Shown one piece after another: positions 41,228 through 59,920 of a DNA stretch of 64,000 nucleotides. The notes under the pieces are model-generated. The model had not been told where the DNA came from. It ran no database searches and saw only the letters and a program-made list of their open reading frames with translations. Where the stretch lies: positions 3,113,001 to 3,177,000 of the forward strand of contig NZ_CP039690.1 in assembly GCF_005144885.1 (NCBI RefSeq), written 5' to 3'. This stretch comes from Phreatobacter stygius (lineage in GTDB: Bacteria; Pseudomonadota; Alphaproteobacteria; Rhizobiales; Phreatobacteraceae). The first letter of the stretch is position 1. Every line of letters begins with the position of its first letter. The position numbers were made by a program, and so were the translations under genes.

Positions 41228-41303
<76 letters not shown>

Positions 41304-41404: not shown

Positions 41405-42181
41405 CTAGGGCAGCATGGCCGACATGCGCGCCGCGCCCTCCTTCAGCCGTGGCAGGATCTCGTTGAGCAGCCGCTCGTCCGATGTCCTGAGCGCGCTGGC
41501 GCTGGCATTGAGGGAGGCGACCACCAGTCCGCCGCGATTTCGCACCGGCACGGAAATACCGATCAGGCCCTCCTCGAGCTCTTCCCGGTTGATCGCATAA
41601 CCGTCGGCGCCGGCCGCCGTGATGATCTTCAAGAGCTCGGCGCGGCTGGTGACGGTGCTCGGCGTCAGCTTTTCCACCTTGCTCCGCGCCAGCAGGGCTT
41701 CCAGCTCGCCGGGCGGCAGGGCCGCCAACTGCACCCGGCCCGAGGCGGCGGTGAAGGCCGGCAGCCGCATGCCCATGGTGATCACATAGGCCATGCGGCG
41801 CCCGGGCATGTCGGAGCGCGCGACAAAAATCACCTCGGCCTCGTCGAGCACCGAGATCGAAACGGTTTCTTCGATGGTTCGCGACAGCTCGTCGAGATAG
41901 GGCTGCAAGGCCGCGCCAAGGCCAACCGAGGCGAGGAAGGAATAACCGAGCCGGAGCACGCGGGTGGTCAGCTCGAACTGCTTGCCATTGACCTTGGCGA
42001 AGCCGAGCTCGGTCAGCGTCAGCAGCAGCCGGCGCGTCACCGCGCGATCGAGCTTGATGCGCTGGGCGACCTCGGCGACCGACATGCTGCGGTGGCCGGG
42101 TCCGAACGCCTCGATGACCGAAAGGCCGCGGGCGAACCCCGTCACGAAGGTCTGACTCTGCCGTGTTTCGCCGTCCGTCAT
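41405..42181 (-). CDS. IclR family transcriptional regulator (first of a tandem pair)
   Basis: A 258-residue IclR regulator of the PcaR/PobR-like branch. The N-terminal winged HTH is SFVTGFARGLSVIEAF-like (here TFVTGFARGLSVIEAFGPGH), with SVAEVAQRIKLDRAVTRRLL as recognition part. The C-terminal effector domain includes VRFVARSD-like IFVARSDMPG, AFTAASGRVQLAAL and GLIGISVPVRNRGGLVVASL. The next gene upstream is a paralogue, about half identical by eye. They probably control the adjacent transporter and catabolic operons, sensing an aromatic or other carboxylic acid. Confidence 0.92.
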   Translation of the reverse strand: MTDGETRQSQTFVTGFARGLSVIEAFGPGHRSMSVAEVAQRIKLDRAVTRRLLLTLTELGFAKVNGKQFELTTRVLRLGYSFLASVGLGAALQPYLDELSRTIEETVSISVLDEAEVIFVARSDMPGRRMAYVITMGMRLPAFTAASGRVQLAALPPGELEALLARSKVEKLTPSTVTSRAELLKIITAAGADGYAINREELEEGLIGISVPVRNRGGLVVASLNASASALRTSDERLLNEILPRLKEGAARMSAMLP

Positions 42182-42275: not shown

Positions 42276-43067
42276 CTAGAGCAGGATGCCGGTGAGCTGC
42301 TCGGCGCAGGCCTGCAGTTTCGGGATGACGTCGGCGACCATGCGTTGCCTGTCGATCCGGCCGAGATAGGAGCTCGTGTTGAGTGCTGCGACCGGGCGGC
42401 CGGAACGGCTGCGCACCAGCACCGAGGCGCCGAGCAGATCGAGCTCGGTCTCCTGCTCGTTCAGGGCATAACCCTGCGCGCGGGCCTCGGCGATCAGCGC
42501 GGCCAGCCGGGCCGGATCGGTTTCGGTATGCGGCGTCAGGCGTGTCAGGTCGCTGCGCGCCAGGATGGCCTGGGCGTCCGCCGGCGGCAGCGCACTCAAC
42601 AGCATGCGCCCGGAGGCCGAGGCGTAAGCCGCCACCGTCATCCCCGGCGTGATCGTGTAGGAGATGCGGCCCGCCTCGGCATGGCCGGCAAAGGCATCGG
42701 AGCGCGCGATGAACACGACCCGGTCGCCGGACAGGACCGACAGCGACACCGTGTCGCCGATCTCGCGCGACAGTCTGTCGAGGAACGGCTGGGTCGCGCC
42801 GTCGAGCCCGACTGTGGCGAGATAGGAATAACCGAGATGCAGGATGCGCGGCGTCAGTTCGTATTTGCGCCGGTCGACCGTGACAAAGCCGAGCTCCTGC
42901 AGCGTCAGCAGGAGCCGGCGGGCCACCGCCCGGTCGAGCCCGGTCCTGACGGCGACATCGGCAACCGTCAATTGCCGGGCCGTCGGCCCGAAGGCCTCGA
43001 TGACCGACAGGCCACGGGCAAAGCCTGAAACGAAACGATAGCTCTTCTTCTGGTCGGCTTCGGCCAT
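42276..43067 (-). CDS. IclR family transcriptional regulator (second of a tandem pair)
   Basis: A 263-residue IclR regulator with RFVSGFARGLSVIEAFGPTA, LDRAVARRLLLTLQELGF and effector-domain sequence VFIARSDAFAGHAEAGRISY, AYASASGRMLLSAL and LGASVLVRSRSGRPVAALNT. It is divergent from the TRAP transporter operon, 206 bp away, and a 17-bp palindrome sits in that gap at the operon's transcription start region. It is therefore the best candidate for the regulator that binds the three related palindromes in this block. Confidence 0.92.
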   Translation of the reverse strand: MAEADQKKSYRFVSGFARGLSVIEAFGPTARQLTVADVAVRTGLDRAVARRLLLTLQELGFVTVDRRKYELTPRILHLGYSYLATVGLDGATQPFLDRLSREIGDTVSLSVLSGDRVVFIARSDAFAGHAEAGRISYTITPGMTVAAYASASGRMLLSALPPADAQAILARSDLTRLTPHTETDPARLAALIAEARAQGYALNEQETELDLLGASVLVRSRSGRPVAALNTSSYLGRIDRQRMVADVIPKLQACAEQLTGILL

Positions 43068-43170: not shown

Positions 43171-43224
43171 TTGACGGCACATTCCATTTTGCTATATAAC
43201 GCACAAATGAGCGCTAAGCGCTCA
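43171..43224 (+). promoter_or_regulatory. TRAP operon promoter with IclR-type operator
   Basis: TTGACG (43171-43176) and TATATA/TATAAC (43193-43200) form a good promoter, 16-18 bp spacing. CGCACAA lies at 43200-43206 and a perfect palindrome TGAGCGCT-A-AGCGCTCA at 43208-43224, covering the expected transcription start. The CGCACA and CGCTCA half-sites start 19 bp apart, as at the two related sites near 48.4 and 54.4 kb. Confidence 0.65.
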
Positions 43225-43273
43225 AACCAATGAGACGCGGCAAAGCAGCGTCCGTCCAGACGGGAGAAGATCC

Positions 43274-44293
43274 ATGCCGATATCGAGACGCGACATCATG
43301 CGCGCCCTGCCCGTGCTCGGCGCGGCGGGCGCCCTGGTCCCCGGCATCTTCGAGGCCCAGGCCCAGGACCTCTGGCGGGTCGCCTCCGCCGCGCCGCCGA
43401 CCGGCATCCTGCGCGAGCATCACGAGCGCATCGCGCTGCAGATCGGCGCCGCCAGCCAGGGCGGGATCCAGTCGGCTTTCCAATATGTCTCCAGCGAGCA
43501 GGAGGCGCTGCAGCAGATCACCCGCGGCCGTCTGCAGGGCGGCGTCATCTCGATGATCGCGCTCGGCGCCATCGTGCCCGAGGCCGGTGTCCTGCTGACA
43601 CCTTTCCTGTTCGAATCCGAGGCCGAGGCGGAATGGGTGATCCGCAACCGCCTGGCCGACAAGCTGCGTCCCTTGCTGGAGGCGAAAGGCCTGGCCCTGA
43701 TCGGCTTTGCCGCCGGCGGCTGGATCAATGTGGCGACCAGGACCGCCGTGAAATCGCCGGCCGACGTGCGCGGCCGCAAGATCCGGGCGTCACCCGCGCC
43801 GGCCTCGCAATTTTTCTGGTCGACCCTTGGCGCCAATCCCGTGCAATTGCCGATCGGCGAATTGTTTTCCGCGCTCGAACAGGGCCTGGTCGAGGGCGCC
43901 GACCTGCCCTTCACCTTTTATGTCGCCTCGCCCGCCGCGGTCAGCACGCCGCACTACACGCTGACCCGTCACGGCTACAATTTCAGCGGCGTGATCGTGA
44001 ACCTCGGTGCCTGGAACAAGCTGCCGGCGGCACGCAAAGCCGCCATCCTGGCGGGCCTGCCGACACTCGAGACGCTGAACCGCGAGTTCGACCAGTCGGA
44101 GACGGCGCTGGCCGAAAAATTCCGCGGCACCGGCGGCAGCATCCACGCCTTGAGCCAGGAGGAGCGGCAGGGCTGGATCGGCGCCATCGCGGCGCGCCAG
44201 CAGGCCTTTGTCGGCGGTCTGGGCGCGCCGTCGGCAGCCTTTTTCGAGGTGGTCCAGAGCGGCCGGCGCGATTTTGCGGCAACCCGGTCCTGA
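43274..44293 (+). CDS. TRAP transporter substrate-binding protein (DctP family)
   Basis: A 339-residue periplasmic protein. SRRDIMRALPVLGAAGA looks like a twin-arginine signal, cleaved after AQAQ. Family landmarks are GGRLQGGVISMIALGAIVPE-like sequence, ALIGFAAGGWINVATRTAVK, the conserved DVRGRKIRASPAP with the ligand-binding Arg, and GELFSALEQGLVEGADLPF. It captures an organic acid for the DctQ/DctM permease encoded next. The operon starts behind a promoter with an IclR-type operator. Confidence 0.92.
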   Translation: MPISRRDIMRALPVLGAAGALVPGIFEAQAQDLWRVASAAPPTGILREHHERIALQIGAASQGGIQSAFQYVSSEQEALQQITRGRLQGGVISMIALGAIVPEAGVLLTPFLFESEAEAEWVIRNRLADKLRPLLEAKGLALIGFAAGGWINVATRTAVKSPADVRGRKIRASPAPASQFFWSTLGANPVQLPIGELFSALEQGLVEGADLPFTFYVASPAAVSTPHYTLTRHGYNFSGVIVNLGAWNKLPAARKAAILAGLPTLETLNREFDQSETALAEKFRGTGGSIHALSQEERQGWIGAIAARQQAFVGGLGAPSAAFFEVVQSGRRDFAATRS

Positions 44294-44354
44294 CCGGCCG
44301 CGTCGCCGCAAACCACTCAGGCAATCGACAACGTCATCTAGAGGGGGCGACGTC

Positions 44355-44858
44355 ATGGTCGCAACGGCCCGCCGCATGCTCGCGGCCTTGTTCTGGCTTG
44401 AATCCGCCATTGCGGTCGCGGCTCTTCTGGCGGTGGCGGCGATCCTGTTCGCCGATGTCGTCGGCCGTGAGCTGTTCGGCCAAGGCCTGTTCGGCGCGCT
44501 GCGCGCCGCGGTCTATGCCACCGCCATTGCCGGTCTGATCGGTTTCGGCCTGTGCACGGCAGCCGGCGCCCACATGCGGGTCAACCTGCTCGACAAATTG
44601 CTTCCGGCGCGCCTGGAGCCGTCGATCGAACGCATCGCCGACGGCCTGTCCTTCGTCATCTGCGCGGCCTTTGCCTATTGGTCGGTGCTCTATGTCCTCC
44701 AGACCTACGCGCAAAATGAGCAGGCGCTGTCGCTCGGCGTACCGGTCTGGCCGTTTCAGGTCGTCCTGCCCTGGATGTTCATCTCGGCCGGCATCCGCTA
44801 CCTGATCTTCGCCCTGCTGCCGGTCCTGCGTCCGGTCGAACAGGAGCCGACGCCATGA
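44355..44858 (+). CDS. TRAP transporter small permease (DctQ family)
   Basis: A 167-residue protein with four hydrophobic segments: ESAIAVAALLAVAAILFADV, AVYATAIAGLIGFGLCTAAG, LSFVICAAFAYWSVLYVLQT and WPFQVVLPWMFISAGIRYLI. DVVGRELFGQG and the closing W-x-LP-like motif are family features. The ATG at 44355 follows GAGGGGGCGA; the longer in-frame form is not homologous. It ends in an ATGA overlap with dctM. Confidence 0.9.
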   Translation: MVATARRMLAALFWLESAIAVAALLAVAAILFADVVGRELFGQGLFGALRAAVYATAIAGLIGFGLCTAAGAHMRVNLLDKLLPARLEPSIERIADGLSFVICAAFAYWSVLYVLQTYAQNEQALSLGVPVWPFQVVLPWMFISAGIRYLIFALLPVLRPVEQEPTP

Positions 44859-46117
44859 TGGCCCTGGCCCTTCCCGCCGTCATTCTCGGCCTTCTGGTGC
44901 TGCGCCAGAACGTCATCCTCACCGTCGCCGCGGCGGTCGCCTTCGTGCACGCTTTCCTCGCCCGCGGCAGTTCGGTCGAATATCTCGTCCAGGACCTCTG
45001 GTTCACCGTCGACCGCGAGGTTCTGCTGTCGATCCCGATGTTCATGTTCGCCGGCGTGCTGATGTCGCGCGGCAGCATTGTCGGCCGCCTGGTGCGCGTC
45101 ATGGTCGCGCTGACGTCCTGGATTCCCGGGGGCCTCGGCGTTGCCACCGTGCTGGCCATGGCCGCCTTCTCGGCCATTTCCGGCTCGTCGGTGGTGACCA
45201 TGCTGGCGATCGGCACGCTGATGTATCCGGCGCTGCTCGCCAACGGTTATGGCAAGAACTATTCGCTCGGCGTGCTCTGCGCCGGCGGCACGCTCGGCAT
45301 CATCATCCCGCCCAGCATCCTCATGGTGCTCTATGGCATCACCACCAATGTCTCGATCACCGACCTGTTCAAGGCCGGCTGGGGACCGGGCCTGCTGCTG
45401 ACCGGCGCGCTCTGCCTCTACACCGTCGTCATCGGCTGGCGGCGTGAGACGACTCCGTTCGACTGGCGCGAGCTCCTGACCGCGACCAGGACCGGGGTCA
45501 CCGCCATCCTGATGCCGGTGATCCTGCTCGGCGGCATCTATACCGGCCGCTTCACGGTGACTGAATCGGCAGCCTTGTCGGTTGTCTATGCGCTGCTCGT
45601 GGAGCTCGCCATCCATCGCGAGGTGAGGCTCGGCGACATCAGGGATATCGCGGTCGAAACCGTCAAGCTGCTCGGCAACATGCTGCCGCTGCTGGCGGTC
45701 GCCGGCAGCCTCAACGTCATCCTCGATTATGAGGGCGTGCCGAAGGCACTGGTCGACATGGCCCAGACCGTCGTCCATGACCGCTGGGCGATGATCCTGG
45801 CCATCAATGTCCTGCTCTTGATCGCCGGCGCCATGATGGACGAGGGCTCGGCCATCGTCATCTTCGCTCCCCTGATCGCGCCGCTCGGCGCGGCCTATGG
45901 CTTCGACCCCGTGCACTTCGCGATCATCGTCATCGTCAACCTGCAGGTCGGTTATGTCGCGCCGCCGGTGGCGATCAACCTGATCGTGGCGACCGCCGCC
46001 TTCAAGGAGAGTTTCGGCCTGATCTGCCGGTCGGTCATGCCGTTCGTCGCCATCATGCTGGCTGTGCTCGCCGTCACCGTCCTGGTGCCCGGCCTGTCGC
46101 TGGTCTTCGTCAAATGA
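44855..46117 (+). CDS. TRAP transporter large permease (DctM family)
   Basis: A 420-residue membrane protein with about twelve segments. SIPMFMFAGVLMSRGSIVGR, GTLGIIIPPSILMVLYGITT and EGSAIVIFAPLIAPLGAAYG are the DctM hallmarks; the sodium-driven transport path lies in this subunit. It is coupled to dctQ upstream and, by another ATGA overlap, to the amidase downstream, so uptake and hydrolysis of the substrate are co-translated. Confidence 0.94.
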   Translation: MMALALPAVILGLLVLRQNVILTVAAAVAFVHAFLARGSSVEYLVQDLWFTVDREVLLSIPMFMFAGVLMSRGSIVGRLVRVMVALTSWIPGGLGVATVLAMAAFSAISGSSVVTMLAIGTLMYPALLANGYGKNYSLGVLCAGGTLGIIIPPSILMVLYGITTNVSITDLFKAGWGPGLLLTGALCLYTVVIGWRRETTPFDWRELLTATRTGVTAILMPVILLGGIYTGRFTVTESAALSVVYALLVELAIHREVRLGDIRDIAVETVKLLGNMLPLLAVAGSLNVILDYEGVPKALVDMAQTVVHDRWAMILAINVLLLIAGAMMDEGSAIVIFAPLIAPLGAAYGFDPVHFAIIVIVNLQVGYVAPPVAINLIVATAAFKESFGLICRSVMPFVAIMLAVLAVTVLVPGLSLVFVK

Positions 46118-47499
46118 CCGGTATGACAGCTGCCGAGGCCGACGACGACAATGTGGCCGATCTCGGCCTTGCCGAGTCCGCGCGCCGGATCGCCGCCGGC
46201 GCGCTCGATCCGGTCGAGCTCATCGACGCCTGCCTCGCCCGCATCGGCGCGCGCGATCCAGAGCTCGGCGCCTTCGTGCATCTGGACGAGGGTGCGGCGA
46301 GACAAGCCGCGATGGCGGCACGGCAGAGGCTGCGAAGCGGAGCGCCAGTCGGTCCGCTGCACGGCATTGCCATCGGCATCAAGGACATCATCGACGTCCA
46401 GGGGCAGCCGACGCGCAGCGGTTCGCTGGCGCGTTCCGGCCTTGCCGTGGCGCGCGACGCCGTCGTCTGCGCGCGGCTGAGGGCGGCCGGGGCGATCATC
46501 GTCGGCAAGCTCGCGACCTATGAGCTGGCTTACGGAACGATCGAGCCCGACCGTCCCTTGCCGGGTGTGAATCCGTGGAACCCCAGGCGCTGGACCGGTG
46601 CCTCGTCGAGCGGTTCGGCCGTCGCGGTGGCGGCCGGCCTGGTGCCGGCGGCGCTCGGGACCGACAGCGCCGGTTCGATTCGCGGCCCGGCCTCGTTCTG
46701 TGGCGTCACCGGCTTCAAGCCGTCTTATGGCCGGATCCCGCTCGACGGCATCGAGCCGCTGGCGCCTTCGCTCGACCATTGCGGCGTGTTCACCCGATCG
46801 GCCGAGGATGCCGCGCTGCTGTTCGCCGTGCTGGCCGATCCAGCCGTCGCGGCGGAACGGCGCCTGGAGCCGGATCCCGGCGCGGGCCTCAGGATCGGCC
46901 TGCCGATGCCCTGGCTTGGCGCCACGCTGCCGCTCGACCGCGAGACCCATTCCGCCTTCGCGCGGGCAATCGGTCAGTTCGAGACCTTGGGTGCATCCGT
47001 CCAGGAGGTCACCTTGCCGCCGCTCGGTGACTATCACGCCGCCTGTTTCGCCATTCTCATGGACGAGGCGCTGGCGATCCACGGCGGCGAACTGGACGCC
47101 AGGCCGGGCCTGTTCGGCGCGACGCTGAAGAGCCGGCTTCATGACGGGCCGGCCCGGCTCGGCGTCACGGCGGCCGCGGCGCGTGCGATGCGCGCCGCAC
47201 TCGGTGGTGCGCTCGATCGGGCCTTCGATCGGGTCGACGTCCTGATCACGCCGACCTCGCCGGGACCGGCGCCGGACCTGTCGTCGCTCTCGACGCTCGG
47301 CTTTCTCGATCATCCGCAATTGACTGCGCCGGCCAATCTCGCCGGGCTGCCCGCCGTGTCGCTGCCCTGCGGGCTGACCGGCAATGGCTTGCCGATCGGT
47401 CTTCAGATAATGGCGCGCCGCGGCGGCGACCGGCTCCTGCTGCGGGCCGCCGGCCGGATCCAGGCCGCGACCGATTGGCATGACGCCCGGCCGTCCTGA
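46114..47499 (+). CDS. Amidase (amidase-signature family)
   Basis: A 461-residue amidase-signature enzyme. The Ser-cisSer-Lys triad is readable: Lys90 (GIAIGIKDIID), cis-Ser164 (TGASSSGSA) and nucleophile Ser188 (GTDSAGSIR). The GASSSGSA motif departs from the usual GGSSGGS. Such enzymes hydrolyse carboxamides, carbamates or related esters. Its start overlaps the TRAP large permease gene by 4 bp, implying that the imported acid carries an amide bond, or that the amidase releases the acid. It ends 9 bp from the convergent aroE-like gene. Confidence 0.92.
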   Translation: MTGMTAAEADDDNVADLGLAESARRIAAGALDPVELIDACLARIGARDPELGAFVHLDEGAARQAAMAARQRLRSGAPVGPLHGIAIGIKDIIDVQGQPTRSGSLARSGLAVARDAVVCARLRAAGAIIVGKLATYELAYGTIEPDRPLPGVNPWNPRRWTGASSSGSAVAVAAGLVPAALGTDSAGSIRGPASFCGVTGFKPSYGRIPLDGIEPLAPSLDHCGVFTRSAEDAALLFAVLADPAVAAERRLEPDPGAGLRIGLPMPWLGATLPLDRETHSAFARAIGQFETLGASVQEVTLPPLGDYHAACFAILMDEALAIHGGELDARPGLFGATLKSRLHDGPARLGVTAAAARAMRAALGGALDRAFDRVDVLITPTSPGPAPDLSSLSTLGFLDHPQLTAPANLAGLPAVSLPCGLTGNGLPIGLQIMARRGGDRLLLRAAGRIQAATDWHDARPS

Positions 47500-47508
47500 C
47501 CGACCCGC

Positions 47509-48342
47509 TCAGCCGGCCCGGCCGAGGTCGAAAAAGGCGATCTGCATGGCGACCTGGGCATCCGACATGGCAAGCCCGGTCTGCACCCGGCAGCCATGGG
47601 CGCGGGCCGCTTTCAGAAGCGGCGTCTCGACCGGCTCGGTGACGACGTCGGCAACCAGCGCGTCCCGCGGCAGGCTCGTGGGATCGAACGGCATGCGCCC
47701 GTCCTCACCCATGCCGACCGGGCTCGCGTTGATCGCCAGGTGATAGGCGCCGAGATCCGCTCCGACATCGGTGCCGAGGCGGTCGGCGACACCGGCGGCC
47801 TTCGCCAGCGCGGCGAGAGCTTCGCGGCGCGCATCATCGGGCTCATGGAACGCGATGCGGCTCACGCCGGCTTCGGTGAGGCTGAGCAGCAGAGCCCGGC
47901 CGACCGCGCCGGCGCCGAACACCACGGCGTTCTTGCCGGCCGGATCGAAACCGCCAGCGGCGAGCGCCTTCAGAAATCCCGGGCCGTCGCTCATGTCACC
48001 GGCGAGCCGGCCATCCGGCCGCCGCCGGATCAGGTTGACCGCGCCGAGCAGGCGTGCCCGGTCGGTCAGGTCGTCGACGAGGCTGGCGCAGGGCATCTTG
48101 TGCGGCACCGTGACGATCGTGCCCGGCGCATTGCGCCAGCCGCGCAGGGTTCTGATGAAGTCGGGCAGCGCCGCCGGTTCCAGATCGACCGGCACCAGAA
48201 CCGCGTCGACCCCGCTGCGGCGGAATTCCGGATTGAGCGTGGTTGGCGAGCGGACCTGGGCAATGGGGTGCCCGATAATGGTCAGGACGGTCGTCCGGCC
48301 CGACAGGGCGGGCGCCGGCGCAAGGTCGGTCTCAGTCGTCAT
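47509..48342 (-). CDS. Shikimate/quinate dehydrogenase-like protein
   Basis: A 277-residue member of the AroE family. The substrate pocket is visible as IGHPIAQVRSPTTLNPEF and IVTVPHKMPC with catalytic Lys82, and LLGAVNLIRRRPDGRLAGDM holds the conserved Asn. The NAD(P) domain has VFGAGAVGRALLLSL. Final motif LAMSDAQVAMQIAFF replaces the more usual G-x-M-L-x-x-Q. Because it lies in a catabolic regulon behind an IclR-type operator, a degradative dehydrogenase for a cyclohexane carboxylic acid is more likely than biosynthetic shikimate dehydrogenase. Confidence 0.85.
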   Translation of the reverse strand: MTTETDLAPAPALSGRTTVLTIIGHPIAQVRSPTTLNPEFRRSGVDAVLVPVDLEPAALPDFIRTLRGWRNAPGTIVTVPHKMPCASLVDDLTDRARLLGAVNLIRRRPDGRLAGDMSDGPGFLKALAAGGFDPAGKNAVVFGAGAVGRALLLSLTEAGVSRIAFHEPDDARREALAALAKAAGVADRLGTDVGADLGAYHLAINASPVGMGEDGRMPFDPTSLPRDALVADVVTEPVETPLLKAARAHGCRVQTGLAMSDAQVAMQIAFFDLGRAG

Positions 48343-48353
48343 TGGATTTCCTC

Positions 48354-48391
48354 TTGTGCGTAGAGCGCACGTTTGTATATATATCGCACAA
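48354..48391. promoter_or_regulatory. Divergent promoter with IclR-type operator (aroE-like / FAD oxidoreductase)
   Basis: TGTGCGTAGAGCGCACG (48355-48371) is the second copy of the 17-bp operator, and CGCACAA follows at 48385-48391 with 19 bp between half-site starts. For the rightward gene TTGTGC (48354) and TATATA (48376-48383) can serve as -35 and -10. The alternating TATATATA also fits a leftward -10 for the aroE-like gene. Confidence 0.6.
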
Positions 48392-48474
48392 AGCAGCTTC
48401 TAGCATGATGGCGGAAGCGACGACAATGCACCGCCGCGCAGGATAGCCGGCGGCGAGAAGCAGAGGTCAGTTTC

Positions 48475-50094
48475 ATGCATACGGACGTGCTTGTTGTCGG
48501 CGGCGGGCTCGGCGGCGTTTCGGCGACGCTTGCGGCGGCGCGCCTCGGTCGCCGGGTCATTCTGGTCGAGGAGCTCGACTGGCTCGGCGGCCAGCTGACC
48601 GCCCAGGGCGTGCCGCTGGACGAACACCCCTGGGTCGAGCTCGATGTCGGTTCGCGCAGCTATTCGCGTTTCCGCCGGCTGATCCGCGACTATTACCTCA
48701 CCCATTACCCGGTTACGGCGAAAGCCCGCGCCCGCGTGCCGTTCAATCCCGGCATGGGCAATGTCGGCACGCTCTGCCACGAGCCGAAAGTGGCGGTCCG
48801 GGTGATCGACGACATGCTGGCGCCGTTCGAGAGTTCGGGGCGGCTCAGGGTGTTGCGCCGGCATTCGGCGGTGACGGCCCATCTCGATGGCGACCGCATC
48901 ACCGGCCTGACGCTGCGCAACCACGAGACCGGTGCGCTCGTCGATGTCGAGGCCCTGCTGGTGGTCGATGCCACCGAGACCGGCGAATTGCTCGAACTCG
49001 CTGGCGTGGAACATGTCATTGGCGCCGAATCGGCCGCCGAGACCGGCGAACTGCATGCCCTTCCGGTGGCCGATCCGATGGACCAGCAGGCGCTGACCTG
49101 GTGTTTCGCGATGGATCACCTGCCCGGCGAGGACCACACCATCGCGCGGCCGGAGCGTTATGCCGAATTCCGCGACCTGAAGCTCGATTTCTGGCCGAAC
49201 CGGCAGTTCAACTGGACGGTCAGCAATCACGTCACCCATCAGCCGCTGACCCGCGCCTTGTTTGCCGGCGACAGCGACGAGGACTATCTGTTCGACCTCT
49301 GGCACGCGCGTCGCATTGCCTGCCGGCGCAGTTTCGAGCCGGGCGCCTATGCGAGCGACATCACGCTCGCGAACTGGCCGCAGATGGACTACTGGCTGAA
49401 GCCGGTCATTGGCGTTTCGCCCGAGGCGCGTGACGCCGCGCTCGCGGAATGCCGCCAGTTCAGCCTGGCCTTTCTGTTTTGGATGCAGACCGAGGCGCCC
49501 CGCCACGACCGGGGTTACGGCTATCCGGGCCTGCGCCTGCGCGGCGATGTGCTCGGCACATCCGATGGCCTCGCCAAGCAGGTCTATTACCGCGAGGGCC
49601 GGCGGATCAAGGCCGAGTTCACCGTCAAGGAACAGCATATCGGCGTCGCCGCGCGGCCTGGCGCGACAGCGGCCGAATCCTTCTTCGACAGCGTCGGCAT
49701 CGGCGCCTATCGCATCGACCTGCATCCGCCGACCAGCCGGGCGCGCGATACCGTCGACATCGACAGCTATCCCTTCGAGATCCCGCTTGGCGCGCTCATT
49801 CCGGTGCGCGTCGAAAACCTGCTGCCGGCCTGCAAGAACCTCGGCACCACGCGCATCACCAGCGGCGCCTACCGCGTCCATGTGGTCGAATGGAGCATTG
49901 GCGAGGCGGTCGGAACGCTCGCCGCCTATGCGGCGAAGCACGGCGTGCCGCCGCGCGCGGTGCGCGCCGATGCCGGGCGGCTCGCCGACCTGCAGGCGCT
50001 GATGGGCGATGTCGGCGCGCCGATCCGCTGGCCGCAGTTCGGTGCGCTGACGCCCGGCAGCCGGCGCGGCTATCGCCCGCCGCCGCAACTCTGA
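48475..50094 (+). CDS. FAD-dependent oxidoreductase (FAD_oxidored family)
   Basis: A 539-residue flavoprotein. The dinucleotide-binding motif VLVVGGGLGGVSATLAAARL opens the protein, followed by LVEELDWLGGQLTAQGVPLD, the usual sequence of the FAD_oxidored family, with conserved His and Trp in EHPWVELDVGS. A C-terminal GALIPVRVENLLPACKNLGT segment re-forms the FAD site. There are no visible Cys clusters for Fe-S. Members are poorly characterised and may oxidise ring or amine substrates. It is the first gene of a three-gene operon behind an IclR-type operator. Confidence 0.87.
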   Translation: MHTDVLVVGGGLGGVSATLAAARLGRRVILVEELDWLGGQLTAQGVPLDEHPWVELDVGSRSYSRFRRLIRDYYLTHYPVTAKARARVPFNPGMGNVGTLCHEPKVAVRVIDDMLAPFESSGRLRVLRRHSAVTAHLDGDRITGLTLRNHETGALVDVEALLVVDATETGELLELAGVEHVIGAESAAETGELHALPVADPMDQQALTWCFAMDHLPGEDHTIARPERYAEFRDLKLDFWPNRQFNWTVSNHVTHQPLTRALFAGDSDEDYLFDLWHARRIACRRSFEPGAYASDITLANWPQMDYWLKPVIGVSPEARDAALAECRQFSLAFLFWMQTEAPRHDRGYGYPGLRLRGDVLGTSDGLAKQVYYREGRRIKAEFTVKEQHIGVAARPGATAAESFFDSVGIGAYRIDLHPPTSRARDTVDIDSYPFEIPLGALIPVRVENLLPACKNLGTTRITSGAYRVHVVEWSIGEAVGTLAAYAAKHGVPPRAVRADAGRLADLQALMGDVGAPIRWPQFGALTPGSRRGYRPPPQL

Positions 50095-50109
50095 GCTTGC
50101 AGGTTCGTG

Positions 50110-50991
50110 ATGCTCGATGGTTTCACCTATCAGACCGTGGAGACCGGCGAAGCCTCGATCCGGGTGGCGGTCGCGGGCTCCGGCCCACCGGTCCTGCTGC
50201 TGCATGGCTATCCGCAGACCCATATGGCCTGGCACCGGATCGCCCCCGTGCTGGCACGCGAGTTCACCGTGGTCGCGCCGGACCTGCGCGGTTATGGCGA
50301 TAGCACCGCCGCGATCCATCTCTCCGGCCCGGACAGCATGGCCAAGCGCGCCCTGGCCCGCGACCAGGTGGCGGTCATGAGCCATCTCGGCTTCGACCGT
50401 TATGCCGTGGTCGCGCATGACCGCGGCGCCCGGGTCGGCTACCGGCTGGCGCTCGACCATCCGGCAAGGGTCAAGGCCTTTGCCTCGCTCACCGTCGTGC
50501 CGACCATCGAGGTCTGGCAGCGGGTCGACATGGCCTTCGCCATGGGTGCCTGGCACTGGTTCCTGTTCGCCCAAGCCTTCGACCTGCCCGAGCGGTTCAT
50601 CGGCGCCGACCCCGACGATTTCCTGGACCGGACCTTGCGGAAGATGACACGCTACCGCGACCGGCTCGGCCCGCAAGCGGTCGCCGCCTATCGTGCGGCG
50701 TTCCGGCGCGACGCGGTGCGCCATGCCATGATGAACGATTACCGGGCCGCCGCGACCATCGACCTCGACCACGACAAGGCCGACCGCGCGGCGGGGCGAA
50801 AACTTGGCTGTCCGGTGCTGGTCACCTGGGAAGCCGGCCGGCATCAAAGCGGCGAGACGCTCGCCGATATCTGGCAGGGCTGGGCGGACGAGGTCGAGGG
50901 CGGTCCGATCGATGCCGGCCATCTGCAGGCCGAGGAGGCGCCCGGCGAGGTCCTGGCGCTGCTCATGCCGTTTCTCAATCGAAACACCTGA
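50110..50991 (+). CDS. Alpha/beta hydrolase with Asp nucleophile (haloacetate dehalogenase/epoxide hydrolase-like)
   Basis: A 293-residue alpha/beta hydrolase. The oxyanion motif is LLLHGYPQTHMAWH, then VAPDLRGYGDS. The nucleophile elbow reads VVAHDRGARVG, so the nucleophile is Asp104 rather than Ser, as in haloacetate dehalogenases and epoxide hydrolases. The C-terminal His lies in IDAGHLQAEEAP. The DRGARVGYRLALDHP pattern is especially like fluoroacetate/haloacetate dehalogenases. GTG at 50107 directly precedes the chosen ATG. It sits 15 bp after the FAD oxidoreductase. The physiological substrate may be an ester, lactone or epoxide rather than a halide. Confidence 0.87.
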   Translation: MLDGFTYQTVETGEASIRVAVAGSGPPVLLLHGYPQTHMAWHRIAPVLAREFTVVAPDLRGYGDSTAAIHLSGPDSMAKRALARDQVAVMSHLGFDRYAVVAHDRGARVGYRLALDHPARVKAFASLTVVPTIEVWQRVDMAFAMGAWHWFLFAQAFDLPERFIGADPDDFLDRTLRKMTRYRDRLGPQAVAAYRAAFRRDAVRHAMMNDYRAAATIDLDHDKADRAAGRKLGCPVLVTWEAGRHQSGETLADIWQGWADEVEGGPIDAGHLQAEEAPGEVLALLMPFLNRNT

Positions 50992-51054
50992 AGCTCGAAA
51001 CCCACAACCGACCACCAAGAAACCAGACTCAAGAAACCAACGAGGAACCCCGCC

Positions 51055-52029
51055 ATGACCCGTTTCATCTCCACAGTTGCGGCTCTCCTGGGCCTCGTTC
51101 TCGCGCCCGTGGCGGCGCTGGCGCAGCCGCCGCTGCTGAACCGGCCGATCAATCTCCATGTCGGTTTTGCCGCCGGCGGCCCGGCCGACGTGCTGGCCCG
51201 GGTGATCGCCGAAAAGCTGCGCGAGACGACCGGGCAAACCCTCGTGGTGGTCAACCGCTCCGGCGCCGGCGGCACGCTGGCGGCGGCGACAGTGGCCAAA
51301 GCCCAGCCCGACGGCGCCAACCTCTTGCTGGTGACCAGCGGCCATGCCGGCGCGCCGGCGCTCTATCCCAACCTGAGCTTCGACAACCAGAGGGACTTCG
51401 CGCCGGTCATCGCGCTCGCCGAGTCGCCGATTGTCGTGCTGGTCAACGGCAAGTCGCGCTATCGCACCTTGCAGGACCTGCTCGAGGCCGCGCGCGCCAA
51501 TCCCGGCAAGCTCAATTTCGGCACCGGCGGCGGCGGCGCCACCTTGACCGCGCTATCGGCCATGCTGCTGCGCAAGGAGGTGGGTTTCGACGCCGTCGTC
51601 ATCAATTTTCCGGGCTCCGGACCGGCCAATGTCGCCTTGATGGGCAATGTCATCGATTTTCAGTTCGACACACTCTCGGGCGCCGTCGGGCTGTTGAGTT
51701 CCGGCGACCTCCGGGCGCTGGCGGTCAGCACAGCCAGGCGGTCGAGCATCCTGCCCGACGTGCCGACGGTGGCGGAGGCGGTCAGGCCCGGCTTCGACGT
51801 CACCGGCTGGTTCGGCATCCTGGCGCCGGCCGGCACCGACCCGGCCTTTGTCGGCCGCCTGAACGCCGCCATCAATGCCGCACTTCAGGCGCCCGATGTC
51901 CGCCAGAAACTCGCCGTGCTCGGCATCGAGCCGATCGGTGGCACGCCGCAGCAGTTCGGCGCGCTGATCGCCTCCGAGACGGTCCGCTGGGGCGGGCTCA
52001 TTCGCGAGCTTGGGCTGAGGGTCGACTGA
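51055..52029 (+). CDS. Bug-type (TctC) periplasmic solute-binding protein
   Basis: A 324-residue secreted protein. The signal peptide (MTRFISTVAALLGLVLAPVA, cleaved after ALAQP) precedes PINLHVGFAAGGPADVLARV, the Bug signature that holds the ligand carboxylate. LVVVNRSGAGGTLAAATVAK, NFGTGGGGATLTALSAMLL and VAEAVRPGFDVTGWFGILAP follow. No TctA or TctB membrane genes are near. Bug proteins bind carboxylates such as nicotinate, aspartate or aromatic acids, and many are orphans acting as sensors. It is last gene of the FAD oxidoreductase operon. Confidence 0.93.
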   Translation: MTRFISTVAALLGLVLAPVAALAQPPLLNRPINLHVGFAAGGPADVLARVIAEKLRETTGQTLVVVNRSGAGGTLAAATVAKAQPDGANLLLVTSGHAGAPALYPNLSFDNQRDFAPVIALAESPIVVLVNGKSRYRTLQDLLEAARANPGKLNFGTGGGGATLTALSAMLLRKEVGFDAVVINFPGSGPANVALMGNVIDFQFDTLSGAVGLLSSGDLRALAVSTARRSSILPDVPTVAEAVRPGFDVTGWFGILAPAGTDPAFVGRLNAAINAALQAPDVRQKLAVLGIEPIGGTPQQFGALIASETVRWGGLIRELGLRVD

Positions 52030-52045
52030 CGCGCTCGGCGGTATT

Positions 52046-52882
52046 TCAGCGCTGGCCGAGGGCTTCCAGCGTGGCGCGGGTGCGTTCTCCGCAGAGCCGG
52101 GCGCGCTCCATCGCCGAAAGTCCGGCATGGCCGGCGACGGGCGCTTCGATACTGAGTGGGATGCCGGCCGGCAGCGCGTCAAGCAGGCCGGCGATGTCGA
52201 GTTCGCCGTCGCCCGGATAGAGCCGGTCGCCCCGCGCCTCGCGGCGCAGGTCGTCCGGGAAGGGGGGCTCGCGCCTTGCGTCGCAGAGCTGGATATAGCT
52301 CAGGCGATCGGGCGAAATGCCGGCGAGATCCTGGGGCCCGCCGCCCGAGCGCCGCAGATGCAGCGCGTCGATCATGATGCCGCTGCCGGCAACCACCGCG
52401 GCATCGACCACGGCCTCGGCCGCGGCGAGCGTGTTGACCACGCAATAGGGAATGAATTCGAGCATGGTGCCGAGCCCGTGCTGGCGGGCGGTCGCCGCCA
52501 GCCGGCCGAAATTCTCGACCTGGCGGCTCGGCTCGGGATCATGACCGATGGCCAGGACCTGGGTGGCGCCGAGCCGCGCCGCCGTTTCGGCGATGGCCGT
52601 AAAGGCGGCGGGGTCGGTGTCCGGCGTCAGCCAGATCGCCTCGACGTCGAGGATGCTGACGCCGGTTGCCGCCATCGCGTCCAGGATGGCGCGGATCATC
52701 GTTTCGTCGCCGATGACCGGCACGATCCGGTCGGATGCGGTGGGCGCGACGATCCTGAGGCCGACATGGTCGAAACCGCCGGCCGCCGCCGCCCGGATCA
52801 GTTCGACCGGCCCGGCATCGATGACGGTCAGGTGCGCCAGCGACAGCCGGCGTCCGGAGGGATGTGTCGGGGACGGTGTCAT
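52046..52882 (-). CDS. Sugar phosphate isomerase/epimerase-like TIM barrel
   Basis: A 278-residue xylose isomerase-like TIM barrel. Probable metal ligands are the Glu of TMLEFIPY, the Asp of IMIDALHLRR, the His just after, and the Glu of PLSIEAPVAG. YIQLCDARREPPFPDD and YPGDGELDIAGLLDAL are family features. Members isomerise or epimerise sugars and related keto-acids, or act as hydrolases or decarboxylases on ring-derived compounds. It ends the NIPSNAP operon and converges with the Bug gene. Confidence 0.88.
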   Translation of the reverse strand: MTPSPTHPSGRRLSLAHLTVIDAGPVELIRAAAAGGFDHVGLRIVAPTASDRIVPVIGDETMIRAILDAMAATGVSILDVEAIWLTPDTDPAAFTAIAETAARLGATQVLAIGHDPEPSRQVENFGRLAATARQHGLGTMLEFIPYCVVNTLAAAEAVVDAAVVAGSGIMIDALHLRRSGGGPQDLAGISPDRLSYIQLCDARREPPFPDDLRREARGDRLYPGDGELDIAGLLDALPAGIPLSIEAPVAGHAGLSAMERARLCGERTRATLEALGQR

Positions 52883-52891
52883 GTGCGGCCC

Positions 52892-53683
52892 TCAGCCGAT
52901 CAGTTGCAAGAGCGTATCCGACAGCAATTGCGGATGGGTGACCATGGCGTCATGGGGGGCTTGCAAACCGACATAACGCCATGACCCGTCGGCCTTGATC
53001 CGGTCGCGCGTCCCGTCAAAAAACACCATGCCCGGGGCGTCGCAGGAAATATAGGAACGACGCGGCAGGTGAGCCACGCCCTTCTCGATCCGGATCGGCT
53101 GGGCATAGGTGCCGAACGGCTGCGCACTCATGCGGCCGTCGAGCCAGGCGGCATCCGTCTTGTCGGTCACGCCGAAATCGGCCGCGGTCAGTGCCGGGAT
53201 GTTCCAGTTCGGGTCGGCGACCGCCTTGGCGTTGCGTTCGATGGTCGATTGTTCGCCGGCATATTGGTTCACCGTCTCGCCGTTCAGCGGGAAGAAGGCG
53301 TCGAGCAGGATGAGATGCGACACCCGCTTGCCCAGCAACTCCACGGCCCCGGTGACGACGAAGCCGCCATAGCTGTGGCCGACCAGCACGACGTCGTTCA
53401 GCTCCTCGTTTTCGATATGCTGCACGACATCCTGGATATGGGTGTCGAGCACGACCGACCGCGATATCAGGTGCCGCCTTTCGCCGAGCCCGGTCAGCGT
53501 CGGGGCGCTGACCGGGTGGCCGGCGGCCTCCAGCCGTGGCTTGACCCGCGACCAGCACCAGCCGCCATGCCAGGCGCCGTGAACCAGCACGATCGGCGCG
53601 CGCCGTGCCGGGGCCGGCTGCGCCGCGGCATCGCCCGCAAAGGCGGCGAGGCCGCCGCCGACAACCAGAGTCCGCCTGTTCAT
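52892..53683 (-). CDS. Exported alpha/beta hydrolase (esterase)
   Basis: A 263-residue alpha/beta hydrolase. MNRRTLVVGGGLAAFAGDAA looks like an export signal. The mature enzyme has IVLVHGAWHGGWCWSRVKPR, the nucleophile elbow VVLVGHSYGGFVV (Ser104) and a late His in LQAPHDAMVTHP, the pattern of methyl salicylate esterase-like hydrolases. GGGGAG is 8 bp before the ATG at 53683. It would hydrolyse an ester outside the cytoplasm before uptake. It lies between the NIPSNAP and TIM-barrel genes, in the same operon. Confidence 0.86.
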   Translation of the reverse strand: MNRRTLVVGGGLAAFAGDAAAQPAPARRAPIVLVHGAWHGGWCWSRVKPRLEAAGHPVSAPTLTGLGERRHLISRSVVLDTHIQDVVQHIENEELNDVVLVGHSYGGFVVTGAVELLGKRVSHLILLDAFFPLNGETVNQYAGEQSTIERNAKAVADPNWNIPALTAADFGVTDKTDAAWLDGRMSAQPFGTYAQPIRIEKGVAHLPRRSYISCDAPGMVFFDGTRDRIKADGSWRYVGLQAPHDAMVTHPQLLSDTLLQLIG

Positions 53684-53727
53684 CGGATCATCTCCCCTAT
53701 CGATTGCTGATGGTTTGTCGATCAAGG

Positions 53728-54405
53728 TCACTTCACGAAGGACCAGGCGGTCGGCCGCATGACCACGCCGACATGGTCCTGTTCATGCTCGCGCGATTGC
53801 CGGATCCAGGCTGCCCATTCCGGAAAATCCTCTGGCCGGGATTCGGCCCGGGTCAGCGCCAGGACATTGGGGAACGACCAGACGAGGATGACTTCGCCGC
53901 CATTTCGGAAGGCCACCTCGTAAGCGCCGAGCAAGCTGAAACCATAGGCCGTGCCGATCGCCTGACGCGCCTCGCCGAGACGGGCGAGGTAGCCGGCGCC
54001 GCCGCCGGGTTTGAGGCGGATGGTCTGGTGCAGCACCACCGGCGCACGCTGGCCGCGGCCGATCAGCGCCTCGCGTGTCGGCGTGTAGTCGGTGCCGACA
54101 AGCACGCGGTCGAAGCCGCCGCTGCGTTCGCCATACCAGCGCTCCAGCGGCTTGTGGAACAGGTCCTGGTGGCTGTCGAAATGCGCGCCGAAGCCGGCCC
54201 AGCTGCCCGGTCCCTGCCAGAACGACACCATTTGCGGCCAGTGCCCGGTCAGGAAGATCGGAATCCACATGGCGATCAGTTCGCCGCCGGCCGAACCCTC
54301 GGCATTGCCCTCGCGATGGACGATCTCGCCGAGCTGGTCGAGATAGCGGCTATGGGCGCCCAGTGCGCGCACCGGATCGAGCGTCTCGTGGAAATAGATC
54401 TGCAT
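53728..54405 (-). CDS. NIPSNAP-like protein
   Basis: A 225-residue protein with two ferredoxin-like halves. VVLHQTIRLKPGGGAGYLAR and LLGAYEVAFRNGGEVILVWS are of the NIPSNAP dimeric alpha-beta barrel type; the first half begins MQIYFHETLDPVRALGAHSR. There is no signal peptide. Such proteins are frequent in catabolic clusters with no defined reaction. It is first of a three-gene minus-strand operon, just behind the third copy of the IclR-type operator. Confidence 0.75.
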   Translation of the reverse strand: MQIYFHETLDPVRALGAHSRYLDQLGEIVHREGNAEGSAGGELIAMWIPIFLTGHWPQMVSFWQGPGSWAGFGAHFDSHQDLFHKPLERWYGERSGGFDRVLVGTDYTPTREALIGRGQRAPVVLHQTIRLKPGGGAGYLARLGEARQAIGTAYGFSLLGAYEVAFRNGGEVILVWSFPNVLALTRAESRPEDFPEWAAWIRQSREHEQDHVGVVMRPTAWSFVK

Positions 54406-54432
54406 CGCGGGTCCGTGGCTCGTCGTGTCAAA

Positions 54433-54487
54433 TGTGCACTAAGCGCACATAAGAGCGATATACGCACAAGACAAAACAAGCTGTCAA
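54433..54487 (-). promoter_or_regulatory. NIPSNAP operon promoter with IclR-type operator
   Basis: On the minus strand TTGACA (54487-54482) is followed after 18-19 bp by GTATAT/TATATC as -10. CGCACAA (plus strand, 54463-54469) overlaps this -10 side, and the near-perfect palindrome TGTGCACTAAGCGCACA is at 54433-54449, over the expected start point. Its half-sites keep the 19-bp phase seen at the other two sites. Confidence 0.62.
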
Positions 54488-57229: not shown

Positions 57230-58642
57230 TTATGTCAGTGCGTAGCGCCTGGACAATTGGTCGATGACAAAGTGGACGTTGCGCGCGGTTATCTTGGACA
57301 GTCCGATCGCCATCTTGCCGGTATGCTGGCCCCTGATCGAATAGTCGCCGATATTTTTTGCACCCAGCAAGCCGTTCGGCGCCCCCTGAGAGGCTTGTCG
57401 ACGGCCGTCGCCGGCAGCCGCGCTGGGGATCGCGACATGAATGCCCGGATCATCGGAAAAATGCTCGCCCGGGGCCAGGTTGGCGGCCCGCCATGCATCG
57501 AAGAACAGCTTCTTTCGTTCGGCCATCGTGGTCCTGACATTGTCGATATGGTCGTCCATGTAGCCCCGGCCGATGAACTCGGCCATCACCGACAGGGCGC
57601 CGTTCTCGGGCGACAGTCCGAGAAAAGATTGAAGGTTTTGAAGCGTGTCGACGATCTCTTTCGGCGCCAGCAGGAAGCCGAGCTGGTTTCGATAGGAGAA
57701 GAACTTGCTTAAGGAGCCGATATAGATCGTGCCGCCCGCCTCGGTCAGCGAATAGTAGGGGTTTCGGTTTTCCGTATAGACGCCGAGACAGCCTTCGTAA
57801 TCGTCTTCCACGATCATGATGTGGTGGGCGCGCGCCCATTCGACGATCTCCAGCTTTCGCGCGAGGGTGACCCGCGTGCCGGTCGGAAACTGCACCGCCG
57901 ATGAGGTCAGGATCATTCTGACGCCGGCCGGGTCGATGTCGAACGGAGCGGCGCCCTCGGCGTCATTGCCGACCGGGACGATGACCAGGCCGGCAAATCG
58001 CAAGGCCGCGCAGGACAGGGGGTGTCCGGGATCCTCGGCCATGCAGCGTTCGCCGGGGTTGGCCAGCGCCATGCCGAGCAGCGACAGCGACGGCCAGGTC
58101 CCCTTGGTCACCAGGATGTTGTCCGGATGGGCATCGACGTTGCTGCAGGTCCTGAGCCGGCTGCTGACGAAAGACTTGATCTGCCACAGGCTGTCGGTCC
58201 GATGGGTCCGCAGCGCGCGCGTCGCGCTCTCGGCCAGGCGCTCCGCTGCCCGCCACTGGGCCAGTGGAAACAGATCCGGATGGTTGTTCCCCGGCAGCAG
58301 CAATGTGCCGTCCGAAAGCGCGACCTCGCGCGCGGCCCCGCGGAAGCTGGTGATCCGGCTGGAATAGCGGACGGGCGGGGTCTCGCCCTTCGGCTTGTAG
58401 TCGAAATTGACGAAGGTCCCGGATCCGTTCTGCGAGACCAGCAGACCGTCGATGATCAGCTGTTCGTAGACCTCGACGATGACCCCGCGGGACACGCCGA
58501 GGAGTTTCGCAAGCGCCCGCTGCGACGGCATGCGGGCATGCCTGGGAATGTGCCCGGCGATGATCTTGTCGCGGATCCCGCTGGCGAGCTGTCGCGTCAC
58601 CGAGCCGGCCGAAAGCGGAATGCTGCGGAACAGGGCGTGCAT
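57230..58642 (-). CDS. MocR-type GntR/aminotransferase regulator
   Basis: A 470-residue fusion. The N-terminal GntR winged helix is at about residues 14-80 (MPSQRALAKLLGVSRGVIVE, then VYEQLIIDGLLVSQNGSGTF), then a linker, then a fold-type I aminotransferase-like domain with PLP Lys313 (YIGSLSKFFSYRNQLGFLLA) and EDDYEG at about 279-284. MocR proteins use PLP to sense amines or vitamin B6 forms. ATG 58642 is assumed; GTG 58684 would add 14 residues. It is divergent from the double-cupin gene. Direct repeats of AGGACC in the gap are likely binding sites. Confidence 0.88.
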   Translation of the reverse strand: MHALFRSIPLSAGSVTRQLASGIRDKIIAGHIPRHARMPSQRALAKLLGVSRGVIVEVYEQLIIDGLLVSQNGSGTFVNFDYKPKGETPPVRYSSRITSFRGAAREVALSDGTLLLPGNNHPDLFPLAQWRAAERLAESATRALRTHRTDSLWQIKSFVSSRLRTCSNVDAHPDNILVTKGTWPSLSLLGMALANPGERCMAEDPGHPLSCAALRFAGLVIVPVGNDAEGAAPFDIDPAGVRMILTSSAVQFPTGTRVTLARKLEIVEWARAHHIMIVEDDYEGCLGVYTENRNPYYSLTEAGGTIYIGSLSKFFSYRNQLGFLLAPKEIVDTLQNLQSFLGLSPENGALSVMAEFIGRGYMDDHIDNVRTTMAERKKLFFDAWRAANLAPGEHFSDDPGIHVAIPSAAAGDGRRQASQGAPNGLLGAKNIGDYSIRGQHTGKMAIGLSKITARNVHFVIDQLSRRYALT

Positions 58643-58830
58643 CTCTTCACCGAACGGGTCTTTGGCAATCCGGAACAATTTCACCTGCAGACATGGTCCC
58701 CACCGAGGCGTCCCCAAAAGGCGTTCCCAAAGACGTCCGACAGCCGATCGGACAATCGCCGCGAGCTGCTCTCTCCGCCGGTTTGCCCGGCGCGACGGTT
58801 CCCTGGCGGGGCCGCAACCACGGCATGATA

Positions 58831-58954
58831 AGGACCGCTTCCCGGTCGGCACAGGACCGGTTTCCTGCGCCCGGCAGGACCACTCGCCGGCCGCGGCGAT
58901 GGCCTCTCCGGCGCAACCGAAGGGTGGACCACCGGCTGCGTCTGAAGTGGTCCT
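58831..58954. promoter_or_regulatory. AGGACC direct repeats, possible MocR operator
   Basis: AGGACC occurs at 58831, 58853 and 58876, about two helical turns apart (22 and 23 bp), in the first two followed by a TTCC a few bases on. An inverted copy GGTCCT is at 58949-58954. They lie in the otherwise unassigned 330-372 bp between the MocR gene and the cupin gene. MocR proteins typically bind direct repeats. Apart from these I see nothing in the gap. Confidence 0.45.
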
Positions 58955-59014
58955 GTCCGCCGCATCATCTCTGCGCTTCCGTGCGCTCCAGACGTTTCCG
59001 CGCAAGGGTGGCCC

Positions 59015-59845: not shown

Positions 59846-59920
59846 ACCGCGCAAGTGCGCTGGTCTTTTCATTAGACCGCGCAATAGCGCTGGTCTTTTC
59901 ATTAGACCGCGCAATAGCGC
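59846..59920. repeat. 30-bp tandem repeat: copies of the livF 3' end acting as tandem terminators
   Basis: A 30-bp unit (accgcgcaatagcgctggtc then ttttcattag) occupies 59846-59875 and 59876-59905, and its first 15 bp recur at 59906-59920. The livF stop (59902-59904) and last codons lie in the second/third copies, so the units are duplicated livF ends. On the plus strand each full copy forms GACC-GCGC-AATA-GCGC-T-GGTC followed by TTTTC, a terminator for the cupin gene. Confidence 0.85.

Follow-up and report, generated by a model that had tools for sequence, protein, structure and literature searches.

Candidate tandem operators suggest one IclR-type regulon in an uptake-and-breakdown gene cluster of Phreatobacter stygius

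The stretch of Phreatobacter stygius DNA analyzed here (NCBI RefSeq assembly GCF_005144885.1, contig NZ_CP039690.1, positions 3,113,001 to 3,177,000; 64,000 nt, the whole of which we call the window) carries an uncharacterized uptake-and-breakdown gene cluster of about 11.3 kb in the region 43171-54487. Its genes fall into four predicted transcripts, named here after their TRAP-amidase, aroE-like, flavin adenine dinucleotide (FAD) oxidoreductase, and NIPSNAP genes, and two adjacent IclR regulator genes point away from the TRAP operon, with the first of three palindromic sites lying in between (Table 1). The three sites very probably act as operators of a PcaR/PcaU-like IclR regulator supplied by one or both of these adjacent paralogues, each operator being a 36-bp tandem of two palindromes on which two dimers (a tetramer) would sit. 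That the four transcripts form one IclR regulon, as a sequence-only reading of this DNA had proposed, appears well supported: motif specificity, conservation, the family of the regulators, the motif upstream of IclR homologues, and a rhizobial operator all favor it, and the part that did not hold is the half-site layout at site 1. The proposal would tie the four transcripts into a single regulon and gives exact 36-bp candidate binding targets at 43189-43224, 48355-48390, and 54433-54468.

The sequence-only reading had described three 17-bp palindromes whose half-boxes start 11 bp apart, the first of them perfect, each accompanied by an extra CGCACAA box. All three palindromes lie at the positions it gave, site 1 matching TGWGCG-N5-CGCWCA at 12/12, and the CGCACAA boxes start at 43200, 48385, and 54463, always at a distance of 19 bp from the CGC in the right half-box of the palindrome. 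Read along the plus strand, the CGCACAA box comes ahead of the palindrome at site 1 but behind it at sites 2 and 3, and its orientation toward the nearest half-box also differs between site 1 and the other two. Because side and orientation vary in this way, the three sites do not share one arrangement if the box is taken as a third half-site; if it instead forms the right half of another 17-mer, all three become uniform, with 36 bp, four boxes, and centers 19 bp apart. The "third half-site 19 bp off" is better interpreted as the well-matched half of another 17-bp palindrome, one that is often degenerate. In Suvorova and Gelfand 2021 (PMC8222616), 17-bp IclR palindromes of the TGT-11-ACA type and three-box sites are described, and tandem IclR sites have centers 18-22 nt apart, mainly 19-21, in 94 orthologous groups. 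The 19-bp spacing at all three of our sites falls in that range, with the second palindrome good at site 3 alone. A PcaU-style operator, in which a palindrome plus one direct half-site serves without a second dimer site, was the model of the sequence-only reading and fits sites 2 and 3 but not site 1. We consider it unlikely overall. For PcaU, PobR, and HmgR, an external half-site in direct repeat has been described (PMC8222616), the Acinetobacter baylyi PcaU cited there likewise having a palindrome and an extra required half-site, and at sites 1 and 2 the left half of our second palindrome matches poorly; at site 1, however, the extra box lies on the opposite side and is inverted relative to its neighbor, so that two arrangements have to be assumed under the half-site model but a single one under the tandem model, and at site 3 the second palindrome equals the first (11/12 each). 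Two terminator-like matches at 48355 proved to be the site 2 palindrome itself.

Table 1. Operator sites, regulators, and genes of the cluster, with the distant PcaR-like protein (window coordinates unless marked C1 or L107; box scores are matches to TGWGCG-N5-CGCWCA)
Feature	Coordinates	Strand	Basis and remarks
Site 1, strong palindrome TGAGCGCTAAGCGCTCA	43208-43224	+	12/12; upstream of TRAP-amidase transcript, divergent from IclR pair; invariant in G003
Site 1, weaker palindrome TTGCTATATAACGCACA	43189-43205	+	left box 1/6, right 6/6; covers -10-like TATATA; invariant in G003
Site 2, strong palindrome TGTGCGTAGAGCGCACG	48355-48371	+	11/12; divergent aroE-like/FAD oxidoreductase promoter region; 15/17 positions same in G003
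Site 2, weaker palindrome TGTATATATATCGCACA	48374-48390	+	left box 3/6, right 6/6; covers TATATATAT stretch; invariant in G003
Site 3, first palindrome TGTGCACTAAGCGCACA	54433-54449	+	11/12; upstream of NIPSNAP transcript; invariant in G003
Site 3, second palindrome AGAGCGATATACGCACA	54452-54468	+	11/12 (left 5/6, right 6/6); 19 bp from first; invariant in G003
IclR paralogue 1 (P0001), PcaR/PcaU-like	41405-42181	-	TIGR02431, 267.7 bits (cut-off 284.75)
IclR paralogue 2 (P0002), PcaR/PcaU-like	42276-43067	-	TIGR02431, 246 bits; best solved structure 8eju (Pca regulon), 4.3e-46
TRAP solute-binding protein (DctP)	43274-44293	+	PF03480
TRAP small permease (DctQ), start uncertain	44208-44858	+	PF04290, residues 77-202 matched
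TRAP large permease (DctM)	44855-46117	+	library match
Amidase	46114-47499	+	PF01425
Shikimate/quinate dehydrogenase-like (aroE-like) protein	47509-48342	-	below cut-offs; best structure 4k28, 2.5e-62
FAD-dependent oxidoreductase	48475-50094	+	PF12831
Alpha/beta hydrolase	50107-50991	+	weak matches including PcaD-type models, all below cut-off
TctC-type solute-binding protein	51055-52029	+	PF03401
Xylose-isomerase-like TIM barrel	52046-52882	-	weak likeness to 3-dehydroshikimate dehydratase QuiC, 2.8e-8, below cut-off
Alpha/beta hydrolase	52892-53731	-	library match
NIPSNAP-like protein, first gene of minus-strand transcript	53728-54405	-	PF07978, 20.4 bits, below cut-off 22.3
L086, distant PcaR-like protein	match C1:2899091-2899828; L107:8083-8883 = C1:2899082-2899882	-	adjoins mutS

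The box CGCACAA by itself is not enriched in the window (8 found against 9.67 expected), and the 17-mer with three mismatches allowed is in mild excess (11 against 5.74 expected, a count reached by 3 of 100 shuffles). Across the 7.35-Mb genome, TGWGCNNWNNGCGCWC has 11 distinct occurrences, these three sites among them; the other eight fall within stop-free frames of at least 336 codons, such as G+C-rich DNA often contains. When at most one mismatch is allowed, TGWGCG-N5-CGCWCA is found at 48 places genome-wide against 27 for the reversed-pattern control, and four of the 48 lie in the 11.3-kb cluster, which is 0.15% of the genome and would be expected to hold about 0.07. When all 48 were ranked, a partner half-box 18-21 bp away matching at 6/6 accompanied only the four in-cluster places, the best of the other 44 reaching 5/6, and a pair of CGCWCA boxes spaced 19 bp occurs at four places in the genome, sites 1 and 3 among them. 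Near-matches in the other Phreatobacter genome that carries the cluster (G003) number 62, the reversed control 23. Random occurrence of the motif across the genome, which the sequence-only reading had named as grounds for abandoning its proposal, is contradicted by the clustering and by the confinement of full partner boxes to the cluster. A background of near-matches plainly exists in this G+C-rich genome, the reversed control still giving more than half as many, but the concentration in so small a part of it, the partner boxes found here alone, and the conservation of the operators in G003 make chance palindromes a practically negligible explanation for the three sites.

Conservation before orthologous operons, the other test proposed with the original claim, was borne out in the one other genome in which the cluster was found. 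Among 61 genomes in the relatives search, our own included, the FAD oxidoreductase is full-length in one other, G003 of the same genus, at 94% identity, and synteny with G003 covers the genes between 41405 and 54405, the IclR pair included. At sites 1, 2, and 3, respectively, 36/36, 34/36, and 36/36 operator positions are identical, compared with 117/170, 69/96, and 67/99 (68-72%) over the remaining compared intergenic sequence, which for site 3 extends to 54540 only. The best non-overlapping intergenic stretches of the same length reach 30, 28, and 29 of 36. The three operators are islands of conservation in G003. Also kept there are TTGACG at site 1 and TTGACA on the minus strand at site 3, which by eye are -35 elements. 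A wider set of orthologous clusters was sought by contig scan with the IclR alignment, and one locus was confirmed.

Both adjacent regulators belong to the IclR family, P0002 by PF09339 (HTH_IclR) and PF01614 (IclR_C) above their cut-offs and P0001 by matches to IclR-family NCBIfam models and 51% identity to P0002. The best NCBIfam model for each is PcaR/PcaU/PobR (TIGR02431), and we describe them as PcaR/PcaU-like, not as subfamily members. The recognition-helix stretch (DRAVARRLLLTL and DRAVTRRLLLTL) differs at one residue between the paralogues; given this and their overall identity, both could bind the operators. The same motif accompanies related regulators elsewhere. Among 397 genomes of the order, 41 have matches to P0002 with E up to 1e-45, a figure that counts our own genome and G003; the 45 matches in these genomes reduce to 30 loci, 28 of which were tested for the motif, the window's own and that of G003 being left out. 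At least 10/12 of the motif lies within 330 bp upstream at 20 of the 28 loci, against 1.87 expected from dinucleotide shuffles, and at 18 of the 20 positive loci it is within about 160 bp of the match start; eight families are represented. The count is a slight underestimate, as L062, whose locus starts at a contig end, scores 11/12 at the true upstream position. An RAxxRR recognition-helix signature is present in 27 of the 28 homologues (the exception, L062, is mis-framed) and in three proteins of our own genome, namely both paralogues of the cluster and L086, the PcaR-like protein encoded far from it, and in 0 of 18 other own-genome relatives. Because the homologues were picked by similarity to P0002, RAxxRR marks a clade and is no proof of DNA contact.

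A plasmid search gave 206 records, two of which (H21, H30) were inspected. On two rhizobial plasmids (L125:6894-6932 and L126:6945-6983), the intergenic region that separates an IclR gene from 3-oxoacid CoA-transferase/pcaF genes holds a putative three-box operator of the form TTTGTGCG-N11-TTGTTC[A/G]TATATCGCACAAA, closely like site 2 (TTGTGCGTAGAGCGCACGTTTGTATATATATCGCACAAA). The TTTGTGCG box, the TATAT stretch, and the CGCACAAA box recur in nearly the site 2 layout, whereas the span from TTGTGCG to CGCACAA inclusive differs (37 bp versus 38 bp) and the rhizobial operators precede pca genes, not a TRAP-amidase cluster.

Several points weigh against a shared IclR regulon built on tandem operators. 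The search patterns were drawn from these same sites, so that part of the enrichment arises by construction and the counts test specificity, not discovery; conservation in G003, which is evidence independent of pattern construction, comes from one species pair with about 85% DNA identity over the cluster. Both IclR proteins score below the TIGR02431 cut-off of 284.75 bits. Among the 28 homologous loci, which come from related genomes, several of one genus, and are not independent, eight scored below 10/12 despite the same helix signature (L062 among them), and the motif match of L065 at -322 is probably due to chance, the same letters turning up again at other loci next to tRNA-like sequence. 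Outside the genus, the closest IclR (G040, 53% identity, L053/L081) has just a 10/12 palindrome about 310 bp upstream, and an 18-kb stretch of G040 compared with the window proteins, the two IclR left out, gave an amidase at 33% as its sole match and so lends no support. The own-genome control was neutral: 2 of 21 PcaR-like matches have an upstream motif, about the chance rate, and one of these is site 1 itself. At the sites themselves, the second palindrome has poor left boxes at site 1 (1/6) and site 2 (3/6), the order of palindromes is reversed at site 2 relative to the FAD-oxidoreductase gene, and a consensus promoter scan of the three regions returned no sigma-70 match.

Set beside known IclR operators, the sites are of a familiar kind. 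Like group 1 operators of the TGT-11-ACA subgroup and published tandem IclR sites (PMC8222616), they are 17-bp pseudo-palindromes in tandem, with centers 19 nt apart, with the outer TGT/ACA exact at site 3 only; the outer bases are TGA/TCA at site 1, and site 2 varies at one end. Compared with the consensus TGTYCRYW3RYGRACA, all three strong palindromes have G/C instead of Y/R at positions 4/14, as does MhpR (GTGC...GCAC) in a table of that paper. With Pseudomonas putida PcaR and its operator GTTCGATAATCGCAC (PMC12455658), the likeness lies in the IclR protein (structure 8eju), the CGCAC half-box, and the AT-rich center, whereas GTTCG there corresponds to GTGCG/GAGCG here and the PcaR operator is described there as a single 15-bp box. 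What we propose would leave the knowledge of IclR regulation unchanged, being a conserved but ordinary type of gene regulation.

The genome encodes 21 proteins matching TIGR02431, and L086 is the sole one above the cut-off (336 bits). The operators might be read mainly in trans by L086, or by several PcaR-like proteins of overlapping specificity. L086 shares the RAxxRR helix type and is preceded by a palindrome of its own, CGTGCGGTGACCGCACG, about 70 bp ahead of where the match begins; among six neighboring open reading frames searched, no pca genes were recognized. Outside the cluster, a fourth conserved, tandem-like site, AGAGCGATTATCGCACA, lies about 845 kb away at C1:4012468 (L127:5950-5985 = C1:4012449-4012484), with none of the 21 TIGR02431 matches near it. 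Its 17-mer is identical in G003, differs from the site 3 second palindrome at 3/17 positions, and has a 5/6 partner box 19 bp off; it is flanked on one side by an operon for an ABC transporter of the branched-chain amino acid/urea type and on the other by the gene of a protein scoring over the catechol 2,3-dioxygenase cut-off (334.9 versus 320.2 bits). This site is a possible further regulon member or a possible target of the distant PcaR-like protein. Reading of the cluster operators mainly in trans nevertheless seems very unlikely to us, since the cluster itself contains two PcaR-like genes, which diverge from site 1 and are retained in G003, and L086 is just 38% identical to P0002, its palindrome differing in the center and outer bases. 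A more elaborate arrangement would have the two paralogues, whose ligand domains have diverged, bind the same operators as mixed tetramers; the cluster would then respond to two different ligands, and there would be cross-talk with the distant PcaR-like protein and with the catechol 2,3-dioxygenase/ABC-transporter locus. This is a speculation to which we give little credence.

How the tandem operators might act is suggested by their position. The TATAT-type -10 that the sequence-only reading saw at each site can be read as a TATAT-like stretch inside the second palindrome at all three, though not as a match in the sigma-70 scan; transcript starts and -35/-10 positions were assigned by eye. Relative to the TRAP, aroE-like, and NIPSNAP genes, the TATAT-bearing palindrome comes first and the other second, around the expected transcript start. 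Each site would thus comprise two 17-bp pseudo-palindromes of the TGWGCG-N5-CGCWCA type, one of them good throughout, the second good at site 3 but degenerate at the other two sites, and the 19-bp spacing of centers, about two helical turns, means that two IclR dimers (a tetramer) could sit on the same face of the DNA. The -10-like element would lie under the TATAT palindrome, and the DNA immediately downstream under its partner. From this layout we infer that, without inducer, bound regulator would block transcription of the TRAP-amidase, aroE-like, and NIPSNAP genes, the simplest mode being repression by hindering RNA polymerase, and that an intermediate of the imported substrate, by binding to the C-terminal domain of the IclR protein, would lift the block. 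The divergent FAD-oxidoreductase transcript would use the same site 2 operator in reversed order. Activation of these promoters is an alternative that we hold possible but doubtful: PcaR is reported to repress and activate by promoter context (PMC12455658), and the promoters lack a good sigma-70 match, but overlap of the sites with the -10-like stretch and expected start would favor blocking.

The operator switch would coordinate import, by the TRAP transporter and the TctC-type receptor, with a breakdown set comprising the amidase, aroE-like dehydrogenase, FAD oxidoreductase, two hydrolases, TIM-barrel isomerase/dehydratase, and NIPSNAP-like protein. Genes for aromatic compounds are over-represented in IclR regulons with this type of motif (PMC8222616), which indicates a likely substrate class, and the ligand is perhaps a hydroaromatic or aromatic acid. 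The aroE-like dehydrogenase and the TIM barrel weakly like QuiC are weak hints of a hydroaromatic acid. No cluster protein searched passes a cut-off for beta-ketoadipate pathway (pca) genes, the hydrolase at 50107-50991 having weak PcaD-type matches. Relatives of the FAD oxidoreductase with E up to 1e-30 were found in five other genomes of 385 sampled in the class, four nearly full-length and one partial, at 45-49% identity, and their flanks (up to 1.5 kb) hold no site of at least 11/12. Further relatives occur in 37 plasmid records; the two inspected (H1, H3) adjoin LacI-type regulators and sugar ABC transporters instead, so that the FAD oxidoreductase is not tied to this regulon in general.

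Just past the IclR pair lies a tRNA-Ala (GGC) gene at 41228-41303, and in G003 the DNA that separates this gene from the IclR genes has about 370 additional bases, possibly marking an insertion point at the cluster edge. Farther along the window, 59045-59397 and 59447-59796 (about 350 bases each) match each other's G003 counterparts in the same orientation, which suggests an internal duplication, and a 30-bp repeat in 2.5 copies follows them at 59846-59921. A minus-strand open reading frame at 57230-59326, which we take to be MocR-like, combines GntR and aminotransferase domains; its first ~180 residues match G003 only as a separate, weaker piece, and its start may lie further in.

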